A stretch of 64,000 nucleotides of DNA from Neisseria elongata subsp. elongata (GTDB lineage: Bacteria > Pseudomonadota > Gammaproteobacteria > Burkholderiales > Neisseriaceae). This document shows positions 36,754-48,841 of this stretch, piece after piece. Below the pieces are notes generated by a model. It saw only the letters and a program-made list of their open reading frames with translations. It searched no databases and was not told where the DNA came from. A program made the translations under genes and the position numbers. The stretch covers positions 124,001-188,000 of the forward strand of contig NZ_FOPS01000003.1 of assembly GCF_900113545.1 (NCBI RefSeq), written 5' to 3'. Within the stretch, counting starts at the first letter, position 1. Every line of letters starts with the position of its first letter.

Positions 36754-37968
36754 TCAGTGGCTGTATTTATTGTTGGACTGGGATTCCAACGGTGCGGAAA
36801 GCGGTAGCTCGGGCATGGTGCGGGCGGAGTCGGATACGCTGCCGGACAGGGTGTTCAGGAAGGCGACGATATTGTCCGTATCCTCTTTAGACAATTCTTT
36901 GCCCAACTGCGCCATGCCCATGATATTGACCGCCTTATCCAACTCCCAAACGCTGCCGTTGTGGAAATACGGATAGGTTTTGGCCACATTGCGCAAACCG
37001 GGCACGCGGAAGAAGAATTCGTCTTCTGTTTTTTTGGTTACGTCGGCACGGCCTTTGTCGCGTTTCGGATCTTCGATAAACTTCCAATACGGGCCTTTGA
37101 CCAAACCGAATTTCTGGAAGCTGTTGCCGCCGAGGTTGACGCCGCTGTGGCAGGCGATACAGCCGTTGTCCATAAAGGCGCGCACGCCTTTGCGTTCCTG
37201 CTCACTCAAGGCGGAAACGTTGCCTTTGAGGTATTCGTCCCAACGGGTCGGCGTCAGCAGGGTGCGTTCAAATGCGCCCAAGGCGGTGGTGATGTTTTTG
37301 AAGGAAACCGCGCCGTCTTCGGGGAAGGCGGTTTTAAACAGTTCTTGGTATTCGGGGATTTTGGCGATTTTGGCCGCGGCTGCCTCTTGCGAGTCGTTTG
37401 CCATTTCCACAGGGTTCACCAAAGGTCCGCCGGCTTGTTCTTCAACGTCGGCCGCGCGGCCGTCCCAGAACTGCATGCCGAGTAAGGCGGCGTTTAAAGC
37501 GGTCGGGGAGTTGCGTCCGCCAAACTGTCCTTTATGGCCTTGGCTGGTCGGCATATTGTCCACACCTGCGGAAGCGAGGTTGTGGCAGGAGTTGCAGCTT
37601 ACGGTGTTGCCTTTGGAGAGGCGCGGTTCATACCATAATTGATGGCCGAGTTTGACCTGCTCTTCGGTAAACGGGCGCAGCTTCTGCATTTCTTCGGCAC
37701 TCGGCAGCGGTTTGAAGATGCCTTGCGCGCGTTTGAGCAGCTCTTGGTCTTCAGGTGAGGCATTGCTGTCGGCAACCACGGCGGAAGCCGCAGAAGCCGC
37801 ATTCGAAGCGGCATTTTCGGCAACAGCAGGAGAGGCCGTCTGAACGGCGGCCTCGGAAGCACCCGGAGCCGCTTTCGGTGCTTCGTTACTCTGACCGCCG
37901 CAGGCGGCAAGGGCAAACAATACGGCTCAGGGCAGAACCAGACGGCGAGGATTTTGGTAGTTCATCAT
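36754..37968 (-). pseudogene. ccp: Di-haem cytochrome c peroxidase with a stop codon in its signal peptide
   Basis: The frame from the ATG at 37966-37968 (ribosome site AAAGGAA) reads MMNYQNPRRLVLP, then TGA at 37927-37929, then AVLFALAACGGQSN. Past the stop, 391 codons are intact: a lipobox LAAC, an Ala-rich linker, first haem site CNSCH, the second CIACH, and the peroxidase C-terminus (FFFRVPGLRNVAKTYPYFHNGS). Ccp detoxifies hydrogen peroxide at the outer membrane. A TTG at 37918-37920 could start a product, but its signal would be only six residues before the lipobox Cys. A single base change (TGG to TGA) would explain it. Expression needs read-through. Confidence 0.85.
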
Positions 37969-39746: not shown

Positions 39747-39763
39747 CCCGAAATCACCCATAG

Positions 39764-39812
39764 TAAAAGGCCGTCTGAAACACCCCGAACAGGGTTTTCA
39801 GACGACCTTTTG
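39764..39812. terminator. Hybrid terminator made of two DUS dialects
   Basis: Left arm is AG-DUS (AAAGGCCGTCTGAA, 39768-39779); right arm is the complement of the N. mucosa-type AGGTCGTCTGAA (39797-39808), giving one G-T mismatch in the stem. T-rich afterwards. It marks the left edge of the mucDUS block. Confidence 0.8.
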
Positions 39813-39968
39813 TTGTTATTCCCATCATGACGAACAGAATATATAAGCGGCAGCGTACCTCAAAAACCGAAAGCGATTGGATTCCCAATCAGGCAAAACA
39901 CCATACCAACTGCTTTCGCATGATGCCTGCCGCCGATACGCCATCCTGTATGGAAACCGGCAACGCTG

Positions 39969-40913
39969 CTATTCCAAACTGCCATACTCCTGTTTTTCCA
40001 CATCCCAGCGGTAGACTTTCCGTTCGCCGTTTTTCATGCCCTTCACTCGCCAAATGATGTCGTAAAATCCATTATGCTGCTGCGGCGACATTTTCAGGAT
40101 GTATGTGTCGGTATATACATCATGCTGGCGTGTGCCGTCCTTATTCCAGCTGCCGGCAATGTTCTCAAGCGTAAAGGTGTTGGCGTTCAAAACGGGTTTC
40201 AGACGACCTTCAATAACGGCAAACAACACCATAAACTCTTCCAAGCTGCCGCCTCCTGCATAACCGACCGTGTTCTGCAAGCGCAGGCCGAAGGCATCGG
40301 TTTTATCGTTCAGGCGATAAGCGGCAAAATCGAGACGGGCGGGCAGCACGATTTGCAAACCGCCATCGGGGATTTGCACGACAAACTGCCGCTTCCCTTC
40401 CATAGCAGGTTTGGGGGACGGATAAAATTCGTCTTTTTCTTCATATTCATAACGTTCGGTATAAGGCGTGGCGGCAAGGGCGAATTTGCCACTGGCATCC
40501 TTTGTCAGCACGGCAAGGGTCATTTGAGCGACGGGGTTGCCCGAGTCGGCTCCGCATTGCGCGTAGTGATTCGGGTTTTCGCGGTAAAAATCGCCAAGCG
40601 GATGCTTATTCAGGCACACCAGCGCGACTTGGAGGCCGTTTTTCCAAGGCCGCAGCGACATCATATTCAGTTTTTCCACGTCTGCGTCAGGTGCAACCAA
40701 ACTCAGGATTTCGCGTACGCGCGCATCTTGGCGCGACAGGCTGCCGAAGCCGTCGGCAAGCGGCTTGCCATCCGTTTGTTTTGTATGCCGCTGCATGATT
40801 TCCGTATTTTTGACCTGTGTCCGCCCTTTGCCGGATGAGTGTGAGGTTTCCGCCGTGGAAAGCGGGGTGGCGGCGAAGAACGCCAAGGAGAGAAATAATC
40901 CGGTTTTATTCAT
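39969..40913 (-). CDS. Secreted protein of unknown function
   Basis: A 314-residue protein with a signal peptide (MNKTGLFLSLAFFAATPLSTA, likely cleaved after about residue 21) and no recognised domain. The mature part is hydrophilic with two cysteines (VCLNKH, QCGAD). It is divergent from the lipoprotein at 41180 and separated by a Correia element. It has an in-frame N. mucosa-type uptake sequence (EGRLKPVL, 40198-40209) where most genes here carry the AG type. Function unknown; the shared dialect suggests it arrived with its neighbour. Confidence 0.82.
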   Translation of the reverse strand: MNKTGLFLSLAFFAATPLSTAETSHSSGKGRTQVKNTEIMQRHTKQTDGKPLADGFGSLSRQDARVREILSLVAPDADVEKLNMMSLRPWKNGLQVALVCLNKHPLGDFYRENPNHYAQCGADSGNPVAQMTLAVLTKDASGKFALAATPYTERYEYEEKDEFYPSPKPAMEGKRQFVVQIPDGGLQIVLPARLDFAAYRLNDKTDAFGLRLQNTVGYAGGGSLEEFMVLFAVIEGRLKPVLNANTFTLENIAGSWNKDGTRQHDVYTDTYILKMSPQQHNGFYDIIWRVKGMKNGERKVYRWDVEKQEYGSLE

Positions 40914-40994
40914 GTTTTGTATCCTGCTTGTTCGAAGAAATGTGGCGGGTCGTCTGAAAACGACAGGCTGGAAATGAAGTCGGGATTCTAGCAG

Positions 40995-41101
40995 TATAGT
41001 GAATTAACTTTAAACCAGTACGGCGTTGCCTCGCCTTGCCGTACTATCTGTACTGTCTGCGGCTTCGTCGCCTTGTCCTGATTTAAATTTAATCCACTAT
41101 A
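40995..41101. repeat. Correia repeat-enclosed element, internally deleted form
   Basis: 107 bases, almost identical to 31213-31319 and in the same orientation. The left terminus has one change (TATAGTGAATTAAC). It lies in the divergent promoter region of two secreted-protein genes and could affect both. Confidence 0.92.
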
Positions 41102-41179
41102 CAAACTGAAAAAAGAGTCAGGCTTGATTTTCAGACGACCTTTTCTTGCTACAATCCGTTTTTTCTCGTTGCCATTATC

Positions 41180-43120
41180 ATGAAAACCAGCGTCTGCCTC
41201 TCCCTATTGTTCCTGCTCGCCGCCTGTCATCCCAATGCCGAAGTCGCCGATACCGCCGCGCCGACTGCGCGCAAGCCTTCTTATTTTGAGTCTGACAAAC
41301 GCCAAGCCGCCACGCCGGTTAAAACGCAAACGCCCGCGCTGTCCGCCATCCGCAGCCGCGCCGATTTCGACCTGCTTTCGCGCGTTTACGAACAAGATAG
41401 CGAATACGAAATTCCGCACGTCCTCTTCCTTATCGATCGCGAAGACAACAACCGCACCGACTACATCAACACGCCGAAATACCGCCTGCACGAAACCTAT
41501 CTCGCCGAGATTTTGAAGCCGATGCCGACGCGCAAAGAATTGTTCGAACAATACCGCAGCCCGAACCGCCGCTTCCTGTTCGGCACCATCAGTTGGCAGA
41601 ACAGCACTCAAGAATACGTTTACGAATTTTGGGAAGGCGACAAAATCACGCCCGAATTGCTGAAATTGGCAGAAGGTCGTCTGAAAGACAGTTTCTTCGC
41701 CCCGCTGCGTTACAAAACCAATTCCCTGTGGCAGGAAACCGTTGCTGCGCAAAGCAAAGTCCCCTTCGTAACCCAAGAAAGCCTGATACAGAATTTCCCT
41801 TATTTACCGTTGCACAGGGGGAAGGCGGTAGGCACATTGCGCGTCATCACTCAGGAAGATGACCTTTACGATGTCGGTGCGGACGACATCATCATCTTGA
41901 AAGAAGTGCCGCTGGTGTTGCCGCCCGTAGCAGGCATCATCAGCGAAAAACCGTCCACCGCTCTGTCGCATGTGAACGTCTTGGCGCGCGGCTGGGGCAT
42001 TCCCAACATCTACCTCAAAGACGCGGAAAAAATCCTCGCCCCCTATATCGGCCGCCGTATCGAATTGGAGGCAGACGCAAAACAATACCGGGTCGCCCAA
42101 ACCAACCGAAACACAGCCGCCAAAACATTTTCAGACGACCTCTCCCTGCCGCAGCCCGACACTTCCGATTACAGCCTGCGGCCGCTTGCCAACTTGCGCC
42201 GTGAAGACAGCCGTTACTGCGGCAGCAAAGCCGCCAACCTCGGCCATATCCGCGCCCATATCGCAGGCAGCAACGTCCCCGACGGATTCTGCATCCCCTT
42301 CGCCTACTACCGCGCCATGATGGACAAACTCGGCATCAACGCGGCAACACTGGCGCAAATTGAAACACAAAGCGGCGGCGACAACCGCAAACGCCGCACC
42401 GCCCTGCTCGCCTTGCAGAAAAAAATCACCGATGCCGAAATCCCGTCCGAATGGAAACGTACATGGGCGGAACAATGGCGCAGCCAATTAAACAGCAAAG
42501 GCGTGTTCGTCCGCAGCTCGTCCAATTCCGAAGACCTGCCGAATTTCAGCGGCGCGGGACTGTACACCACCGTGCCGAACGTAACCGGCGAAAACGCGCT
42601 GGCAGAAGCAGTGAAACAGTCTTGGGCTTCCGTCTTCAATTACAGCGCGTACGAAGCCCGCCGCATCGCCGGACTGCCGCACGACAGCGTGAAAATGAGC
42701 GTCTTCGTCCAGCAAAGCATCAATGCCGACCTCTCCGGCGTACTCGTTACCGTCAATCCCTACGATACCGCGCAGAAAAACACTTCCTACATCGCCGCCA
42801 AACGCGGGCTGGGTATTCGCGTGGTCGAAGGAAAACGGGTGGCGGAACAAGCCGTTTACAACCGTCGCAACGACGCCGTACAACGCCTCAGCTCCTCCAA
42901 CGAAACCACCGCGCTGCAACTGGATGAAAACGGCGGCGTCAGGGAAGTGCCGATAACCGCCGGCAACGTCATGAACCACGACCAAATCCGCCGCCTCGAC
43001 CAAGCCGGCCAGCAAATCAAACAGCTTTTCGGCAACGGCGAACAAGACATCGAATGGGCTTTCGCGGGCGGAAAACTCGTCATCCTTCAGGCAAGGCCTT
43101 ATTTAAACGGCAGGCGGTAA
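41180..43120 (+). CDS. Lipoprotein with phosphohistidine and PEP/pyruvate dikinase-type ATP-grasp domains
   Basis: A 646-residue protein with signal peptide and lipobox LLAAC (Cys16), hence exported. Residues 1-210 are of unknown fold. At about 215-300 a swivelling phosphohistidine-type domain carries [19 protein letters not shown] with the candidate His264. From about 345 the ATP-grasp domain of PEP synthase and pyruvate phosphate dikinase follows: CGSKAANLG (Lys350), [18 protein letters not shown] and C-terminal ILQARPY. The order phosphohistidine domain then ATP-grasp is that of plant glucan water dikinases, reversed relative to PEP synthase. No PEP-binding barrel is present. The substrate is unknown. 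Two in-frame uptake sequences are of the N. mucosa type. I am sure of the domain class, not of the activity. Confidence 0.82.
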
Positions 43121-43331
43121 CACGGAAAGGAAGAGGCCGTCTGAAAACGCAAATAAACCGATTCGGCATTGTCCGTTTCCAATGCGGGAAGCAAACGCCG
43201 CCGAACATCGGACGAAACAGTTTTAACCCAATTCAAACATATGTTTTCAGACGGCCTTCCAAGCCCCTGCGCCTTCGGTTATGATTCCGTTTGAAACACG
43301 AACAACCAAACGTTAACAAAAGGAGCGAAAC

Positions 43332-47464: not shown

Positions 47465-47947
47465 CGTCTCTTCCTTTTCCCAAAGCGGGAACCATCATTT
47501 TTAAAAAAGCCGGAGCAGCCAAATTTCCCATCATCCGGCCTGCAATATACGTCCGCCGGAATCATACCGCAAACCGCACATCTGCCAAAGCATTGTTTCA
47601 AATGAATGTTTGACAAATTTTTACAAAAACAAATGCACAAATTTTAATCGAATCTTTATTGTTGTTTTTTCTAAAATATTTTCTAAAAAATAAACAAGCG
47701 GTAGTTAATTTAGATTAACGGGTGCATGATATGCCAATTTTTTACTCATTTCCATGATTTACTTCAGCCGGTTGCAGGCATATACTGCCTGCTAACTTTA
47801 CTGCTGTTTGAAAACAGAGGTGAACGTCGCCGGACGGTCCGGTTAAAAAACCACACCTATTTTTGATTAGAACAAGCAATCCGCCTACGCCCCTATACCA
47901 GCTCAGGCAGTTTCCTCTTACCTAACACAATATCTTTGGAGTTTATT
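47465..47947. other. Long AT-rich leader upstream of tandem roadblock-like genes
   Basis: About 480 bases without a gene. Between about 47600 and 47770 the sequence is extremely A/T-rich, with a TTGACA hexamer at 47610-47615 but no clear matching -10. At 47832-47843 a small hairpin CCGGAC/GTCCGG is followed by an A-run. It may be a promoter and regulatory leader; no known riboswitch was recognised. Confidence 0.55.
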
Positions 47948-48304
47948 ATGAATTACGATAAAGCAGTATCTGAAATGTTGAATGTTGACGGCGCGTTGGC
48001 CGCAGCAGTTGTAGACTTTGCCAGCGGCATGATGCTCGCAGGCGGCGGCTCTCCCGCAATCGACCTTGAAATTGCCGCTGCCGGCAATACCGAAGTGGTC
48101 AGCTCAAAAATGAAAACTATGAAAATGCTGGGTTTGAACGATACCATCGAAGACATCCTGATTACCTTGGGCAAACAATACCACTTGATTCGCCCGCTGC
48201 AAAAACACGAAGGCCTGTTCTTGTACTCCGTATTGGACAAATCCAAATCCAACTTGGCTTTGGCTCGCCGCTCTTTGGTTGATGTAGAACGCAACCTGGG
48301 CTAA
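47948..48304 (+). CDS. Roadblock/LC7-like small protein, copy 1
   Basis: A 118-residue soluble protein. GALAAAVVDFASGMMLAGGG near residue 15 and the C-terminal YHLIRPL...GLFLYSVLDKSKSNLALARRSL resemble the roadblock/LC7 fold, usually a regulator of small GTPases such as MglA. No GTPase gene is nearby. The neighbour 48485-48841 encodes the same protein with two changes. Both have their own ribosome sites (TTTGGAGTTTATT) and terminators. Function unknown; strong expression is plausible from the codon choice. Confidence 0.82.
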   Translation: MNYDKAVSEMLNVDGALAAAVVDFASGMMLAGGGSPAIDLEIAAAGNTEVVSSKMKTMKMLGLNDTIEDILITLGKQYHLIRPLQKHEGLFLYSVLDKSKSNLALARRSLVDVERNLG

Positions 48305-48484: not shown

Positions 48485-48841
48485 ATGAATTACGATAAAG
48501 CAGTATCTGAAATGTTAAATGTTGACGGTGCTTTGGCCGCAGCAGTTGTGGACTTCGCCAGCGGCATGATGCTTGCGGGTGGCGGTTCTCCCGCAATCGA
48601 CCTTGAAATTGCCGCAGCCGGTAACACCGAAGTGGTCAGCTCAAAAATGAAAACCATGAAAATGCTGGGTTTGAATGACGTCATCGAAGACATCCTGATT
48701 ACCTTGGGCAAACAATACCACTTGATCCGCCCGCTGCAAAAACACGAAGGCCTGTTCTTGTACTCCGTATTGGACAAATCCAAATCCAACCTGGCTTTGG
48801 CCCGCCGCTCTTTAGTTGATGTAGAACGCAACCTGAGCTAA
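48485..48841 (+). CDS. Roadblock/LC7-like small protein, copy 2
   Basis: 118 residues, identical to copy 1 except Val for Thr in GLNDVIED and Ser for Gly at the C-terminus. At DNA level many synonymous sites differ in parts but long blocks are identical, so the copies are a duplication kept similar, perhaps by gene conversion. Upstream 180 bases differ from the leader of copy 1 except for the last 10-12 bases (GGAGTTCATT). Confidence 0.82.
   Translation: MNYDKAVSEMLNVDGALAAAVVDFASGMMLAGGGSPAIDLEIAAAGNTEVVSSKMKTMKMLGLNDVIEDILITLGKQYHLIRPLQKHEGLFLYSVLDKSKSNLALARRSLVDVERNLS

Follow-up and report, generated by a model that had tools for sequence, protein, structure and literature searches.

A predicted exported, phosphohistidine-first protein of the dikinase kind in Neisseria elongata, a predicted extracytoplasmic phosphotransferase

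Introduction

Enzymes that pair an ATP-grasp domain with a phosphohistidine domain normally work in the cytoplasm, and the periplasm is considered poor in ATP, the space outside the inner membrane being thought to hold none. A stretch of 64,000 nucleotides from Neisseria elongata subsp. elongata (contig NZ_FOPS01000003.1, positions 124,001 to 188,000; hereafter the window) encodes a protein in which these two domains follow what looks like an export signal. What would such a protein do outside the cytoplasm, and from which donor would it take its phosphate? The initial annotation of the gene had proposed a lipoprotein with the domain order of the plant glucan water dikinases (GWD), which might phosphorylate a polysaccharide or act without ATP as a binding protein. 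Comparison with its relatives and with known systems leaves us judging the chances about even that this is an extracytoplasmic phosphotransferase of the dikinase type, predicted to be lipid-anchored in Neisseria and probably soluble and periplasmic in most other carriers. A search of open-licence papers found no report of the family.

Results

Domain order

The Pfam model PPDK_N, for the ATP-grasp domain of phosphoenolpyruvate (PEP) synthase and PPDK, matches residues 347-641 of the window protein (E 3e-53, 181.7 bits, cut-off 27), and the ATP-grasp domain stops five residues short of the C-terminus (641 of 646). Ahead of it the PEP-utilizers model gives a weak match (residues 247-277, E 0.02, 14.9 bits, under the cut-off of 23.1), and matches to this model at E<=1 are found in 53 of 81 family members. 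The PEP barrel (PF02896) has no Pfam match in the protein at E<=10. Direct reading places LLAAC at residues 12-16, Ser-His at 263-264, Lys350, an 11-residue motif at 443-453 and ILQARPY at 635-641; the coordinates, lipobox, histidine and lysine first proposed are all borne out. A Foldseek search with a weak first model (pLDDT 63) put the same ATP-grasp families on top. In PEP synthase and PPDK (PpsA; 2ols, 1dik) the ATP-grasp domain stands first and the barrel later, as also in the PEP synthase paralogue of the same genome (L001: ATP-grasp, then His domain, then barrel, the last at 4e-58), whereas in the window protein the order is reversed, the barrel is missing and an export signal is present. 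The assignment to the PEP synthase ATP-grasp family, with reversed order and no barrel, is thus confirmed.

Catalytic residues

In RPH-Lm, Lys22, Arg117 and Thr136 position the ATP phosphates and His825 carries the phosphate, according to excerpts of PMC4844700. HMMER alignments to RPH-Lm, with equivalences counted by eye, place Lys350, Arg445, Thr464, His264 and Glu625 of the window protein on Lys22, Arg117, Thr136, His825 and Glu297, and Gln637 and Arg639 on Gln309 and Arg311. All seven are invariant in the 92 rows of the conservation alignment (86 unique members, six genes having been fetched twice). The alignment has 120 invariant columns, and the window gene compared with five other copies from Neisseria gives dN/dS values of 0.037-0.072, although in two of these comparisons dS approaches saturation; together these argue that the conservation of the gene is not due to chance. 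The window protein is catalytically intact as far as its sequence can tell, its ATP-contacting residues being retained in the alignments and its candidate phosphohistidine, His264, aligning with the phosphate-carrying His825.

These invariant residues fit poorly with the suggestion that the protein acts without ATP as a binding protein. They also bear on a pseudoenzyme that would sit in the envelope without turnover, as a scaffold or as a sensor of ATP or nucleotides. Such a protein would do away with the problem of ATP supply; non-catalytic relatives usually lose some catalytic residues, however, and with His264 and the equivalents of the ATP-phosphate contacts unchanged in 92 of 92 rows we regard it as very unlikely.

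Export signal and cysteines

A strongly hydrophobic stretch precedes a conserved mature start, (A)RKPS, in 84 of the 86 unique members, the exceptions being a Comamonas copy in which it is weaker and a Variovorax copy without the motif. A lipobox is present in all seven unique Neisseria copies, although its letters vary (LAAC, LVGC, LSAC). Outside Neisseria a signal peptidase I (SPase I) site of the A-x-A-like kind is seen in 74 of 79 unique members, six of which also have a lipobox (four Stenotrophomonas, one Xanthomonas and one Comamonas); one further Comamonas copy has the lipobox alone. The window protein is in all likelihood exported, judging by its signal, and its description as an exported lipoprotein agrees with its lipobox; a lipobox with no SPase I-type site beside it is characteristic of the Neisseria branch and not of most other carriers. 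That two kinds of signal both preserve export argues that the place of the protein matters.

In 84 of the 86 unique members the mature protein has exactly two cysteines, Cys347 and Cys371; the other two are L097, with a single cysteine, and L023, with four. Cys347 is found in 92 of 92 aligned rows and Cys371 in 91, and a disulphide between them is possible. Two sister-genus copies (L010, 469-2502; L012, 1384-3480) carry an extra hydrophobic tail after the C-terminal QARPY, possibly a second anchor; L013 is without it.

The N-terminal domain and a proposed reaction

Twenty-two of the 120 invariant columns fall in residues 60-205, the N-domain, among them His80, Asp86, His104, Arg131, Glu149, Trp151, Glu152, Asp154, Lys179, Asn181 and Gln199. 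Among 159 frames searched, the N-domain profile matches L155 (E 1e-6) and L019 (E 3e-4), both His-first proteins with export signals, in which part of the invariant residues of the domain recur. A profile search of the PDB with the alignment of N-domain plus His domain (A1) gave no matches at E<=5. We propose the N-domain as the acceptor domain.

In the reaction that we propose, ATP reaching the periplasm or the surface, from host fluid, lysed neighbours or leakage, would bind to the C-terminal ATP-grasp domain. His264 would take up one phosphate of the ATP, with AMP and phosphate as products, and the swivel domain would then turn to the N-domain and hand the phosphate to an acceptor bound there, perhaps a small molecule, perhaps a glycan of the envelope or of the space outside the cell. 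In Neisseria a lipid anchor would keep the enzyme on an envelope membrane.

Distribution of the family

The gene is present in 11 of 83 Neisseriaceae genomes, seven from the same genus, counting that of the window, and four from a sister genus, whose copies show 47-48% identity over the first 330 residues. Six of 399 genomes sampled from the order gave matches (the window's own, three more Neisseria, a full-length relative, L018, and the remote protein L019), as did three of 398 from the phylum (the genome of the window and those that hold the longer cousins L020 and L021). In a non-exhaustive scan with two short peptide patterns, one genome per species, the best 80 of 119 relatives span Neisseria, Neisseriaceae metagenome-assembled genomes, Achromobacter, Bordetella, Stenotrophomonas, Xanthomonas, Comamonas, other Comamonadaceae, Variovorax and Bacteroides sp. 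519. The Bacteroides contig (L097) has 39.5% GC and neighbours that on our reading are Bacteroides-like, so that this copy does not look like contamination. In this region (L097, 1083-12911) the homologue has on one side a YARHG-domain gene together with a large gene that has the look of a lipoprotein and that we take to be alpha-2-macroglobulin-like, and on the other what is presumably a PBP1C-like gene, with a probable IS200-type transposase behind. A record titled Bacillus subtilis SK7B5 (L058), a contig of 67.4% GC with a Stenotrophomonas-like copy, is probably contaminated.

Of 299 Pseudomonadota genomes, 25 match a combined His and ATP-grasp profile at E<=1e-40: the window's own, 22 with His-first proteins of about 1000 residues (19 from one genus) and two with frames holding only ATP-grasp. 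Eleven of 247 Bacteroidota genomes also match, that of L097 among them. The His-first set comprises 37 frames including four repeats, hence 33 unique loci; by our rule an export signal is present in 29 of these, against none of six ATP-first proteins and none of two others. With the His profile of the family the His-first proteins reach 34-66 bits, L133 and L141 excepted at 6-7, and the ATP-first ones 9-18. In all four loci of the 1000-residue type that were inspected (L136, L139, L140, L141) the gene that follows codes for a relative of Pfam Beta-lactamase2 whose start is hydrophobic; three pass the cut-off of 22 bits and that of L136, at 17.4, is below it. The pair is a candidate for a two-gene exported system.

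Somewhat short of an even chance, in our estimate, these proteins make up a class of Gram-negative envelope enzymes in which ATP would drive an AMP-forming phosphotransfer on the far side of the cytoplasmic membrane by means of a phosphohistidine swivel and a new acceptor domain, in several exported architectures (the 646-residue, 1000-residue, L019 and L155 types) across Pseudomonadota and Bacteroidota. If true, this would imply usable ATP, or an equivalent donor, in that compartment.

Donor and acceptor

Nearly all members of the family carry an export signal and their ATP machinery is under purifying selection, which opens a sharp question to testing: does the Gram-negative envelope contain usable ATP or some other high-energy donor, and what receives the phosphate? 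Precedent for a predicted ATP-grasp protein outside the cytoplasm comes from the C7orf58-type secreted animal proteins, in which, according to excerpts of PMC2824669 that name no phosphohistidine domain, a tubulin-tyrosine-ligase-like ATP-grasp domain is fused to an esterase, the predicted activity being that of an amino-acid ligase; this is a precedent for the place and not for the chemistry.

The donor could be other than ATP. The aryl dikinase HpeHI (9goj) is a two-component enzyme at the head of a pathway for aromatic catabolism, whereas the window protein is a single chain, carries an export signal and differs in its N-terminal domain. HpeH alone moves phosphate from 4-phosphoacetophenone to acetovanillone (PMC12167813, in part), which makes a non-ATP donor a real rival: an extracellular phosphorylated compound or polyphosphate would load His264, and the ATP-grasp domain would run in reverse or bind AMP, ADP or pyrophosphate. 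Such a transferase would suit an ATP-poor periplasm, but the equivalents of Lys22, Arg117 and Thr136, for which it has no obvious need, are invariant in all 92 rows, and we consider it unlikely.

RPH works in the cytoplasm, and RPH and the window protein share the equivalents of Lys22, Arg117, Thr136 and His825. The architecture is otherwise different, RPH-Lm (5hv1, 5fbs) being built of ATP-grasp, RIF-binding and His domains, as far as excerpts of PMC4844700 go, and the window protein of N-domain, His domain and ATP-grasp, without a RIF-binding domain and with a signal peptide. A detoxifying kinase, which would phosphorylate and inactivate an antimicrobial before it enters the cell much as RPH does with rifampin, we consider quite unlikely.

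A glucan as acceptor was part of the initial annotation, and an enzyme of this kind would be a bacterial surface counterpart of plant GWD. In plant GWD the His domain precedes a C-terminal ATP-grasp domain, and the window protein has the same order, likewise without the PEP barrel. Some family members also show weak similarity in the phosphohistidine domain: on the GWD1_pHisD model, which has a cut-off of 27 bits, the Bacteroides homologue reaches 27.8, and at E<=1 a match is seen for 9 of the 81 members. The window protein itself gives no match to this model at E<=10, where the filters of the program drop most weak matches, and none was found in 200 Pseudomonadota genomes or 14 controls, which does not prove absence. 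The window protein differs from GWD and PWD in being bacterial, in its export signal and in having no carbohydrate-binding (CBM) Pfam model listed at E<=10, with weak matches filtered and the N-domain left without assignment. According to part of PMC12892837 no high-resolution structure of GWD exists, and the likeness here rests on domain order and Pfam models. Each of the six other Neisseria carriers has three alpha-amylase-family matches, but the window's own genome (99.99% complete) has none, and the difference between 6 of 7 carriers and 23 of 39 non-carriers with such matches falls short of significance (Fisher p 0.23); a glucan link by co-occurrence was rejected on this figure. A glucan acceptor is not supported, and we find a glucan-phosphorylating enzyme very improbable, although a glucan from another organism could conceivably be the substrate.

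Several points weigh against the ATP-driven phosphotransferase that we favour. Conservation of residues alone is no proof of the full reaction, since among RPH mutants K22A is dead, R117A and T136V split ATP without forming product and E297A is fully active (PMC4844700, in excerpt). The signal calls across the family were made by our own rule and with no trained predictor. No fold was listed for the N-domain by VIA-align, which barely tested that part. Finally, when the open reading frames of 24 representative loci were compared with 81 loci (flanks up to 8 kb; ten genus groups taken from record titles, with L058 counted as Stenotrophomonas), no neighbour was conserved in more than five of the ten groups, and so no pathway is indicated.

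Table 1. Coordinates of the features discussed; positions are those of the window unless a locus is named.
Feature	Coordinates	Strand	Remarks
Whole gene, exported His-first dikinase-like protein, 646 residues	41180..43120	+	ATG at 41180; stop ends at 43120
Signal peptide; lipobox LAAC, with Cys16 as its last residue	41180..41227	+	
N-domain, residues about 60-205, no Pfam assignment	41357..41794	+	proposed acceptor site
Phosphohistidine swivel domain, residues 206-312	41795..42115	+	bounds set by the authors
His264 codon	41969..41971	+	on RPH-Lm His825 in alignments; 92/92 rows
ATP-grasp domain, residues 336-641	42185..43102	+	
Lys350 codon	42227..42229	+	on RPH-Lm Lys22 in alignment; 92/92 rows
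Cys347 (42218-42220) and Cys371 (42290-42292)	42218..42292	+	candidate disulphide
Stretch probably imported from a Neisseria of another uptake-sequence dialect	39762..43151	.	GTCGTCTGAA dialect; flanks differ in relatives
His-first cousin of about 1000 residues with beta-lactamase-like gene	L136 6559-10835; L139 6799-11306; L140 6736-11066; L141 6448-10880		

Genomic context

In the neighbour comparison three neighbours are common to three or four groups, two pyridine nucleotide-disulphide oxidoreductases and one LysR regulator (Pfam). A conserved operon as a clue to function was rejected, as no neighbour extends beyond five of ten groups. The gene at 39969-40913 has a weak match to the PA3715 family (51 bits, cut-off 70). 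Within the genus it turns up in 4 of 46 genomes at E<=1e-20, and it is found near the focal gene in one of five other Neisseria loci compared (L022); it was rejected as a partner.

The window contains the uptake sequence GCCGTCTGAA 100 times and GTCGTCTGAA eight times. Six of the eight GTCGTCTGAA copies lie within 39797-42130, while none of the 100 GCCGTCTGAA copies lies between 39771 and 43135 (simple binomial chances 6e-8 and 0.005, with bounds set once the data had been seen). Between 36.0 and 47.0 kb, the sole matches to the GTCG-rich loci L022, L023, L144 and L146 are at 39762-43151, the long ones at 94-97% identity and the PA3715-like part being covered by L022 only; locus L145, mainly of the GCCG form, matches at 79%. 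The foreign dialect and the confined matches suggest that the focal and PA3715-like genes were probably imported by natural transformation, the focal gene lying elsewhere in those relatives.

Between the two genes lies a short dispersed repeat (40991-41105), which L022, L023, L144 and L146 also carry at sites apart from the focal gene and which we take to be a Correia-type element. No inverted repeat of at least 15 bases was found within it, and Rfam at the gathering threshold gave no match in 38-46 kb. A di-haem cytochrome c peroxidase is encoded on the minus strand at 36757-37920, with a lipobox-like LAAC near its start. At 47936-48304 and 48485-48841 two adjoining and nearly identical proteins of 118-122 residues, presumably roadblock/MglB-like, differ in few residues and point to a recent duplication.
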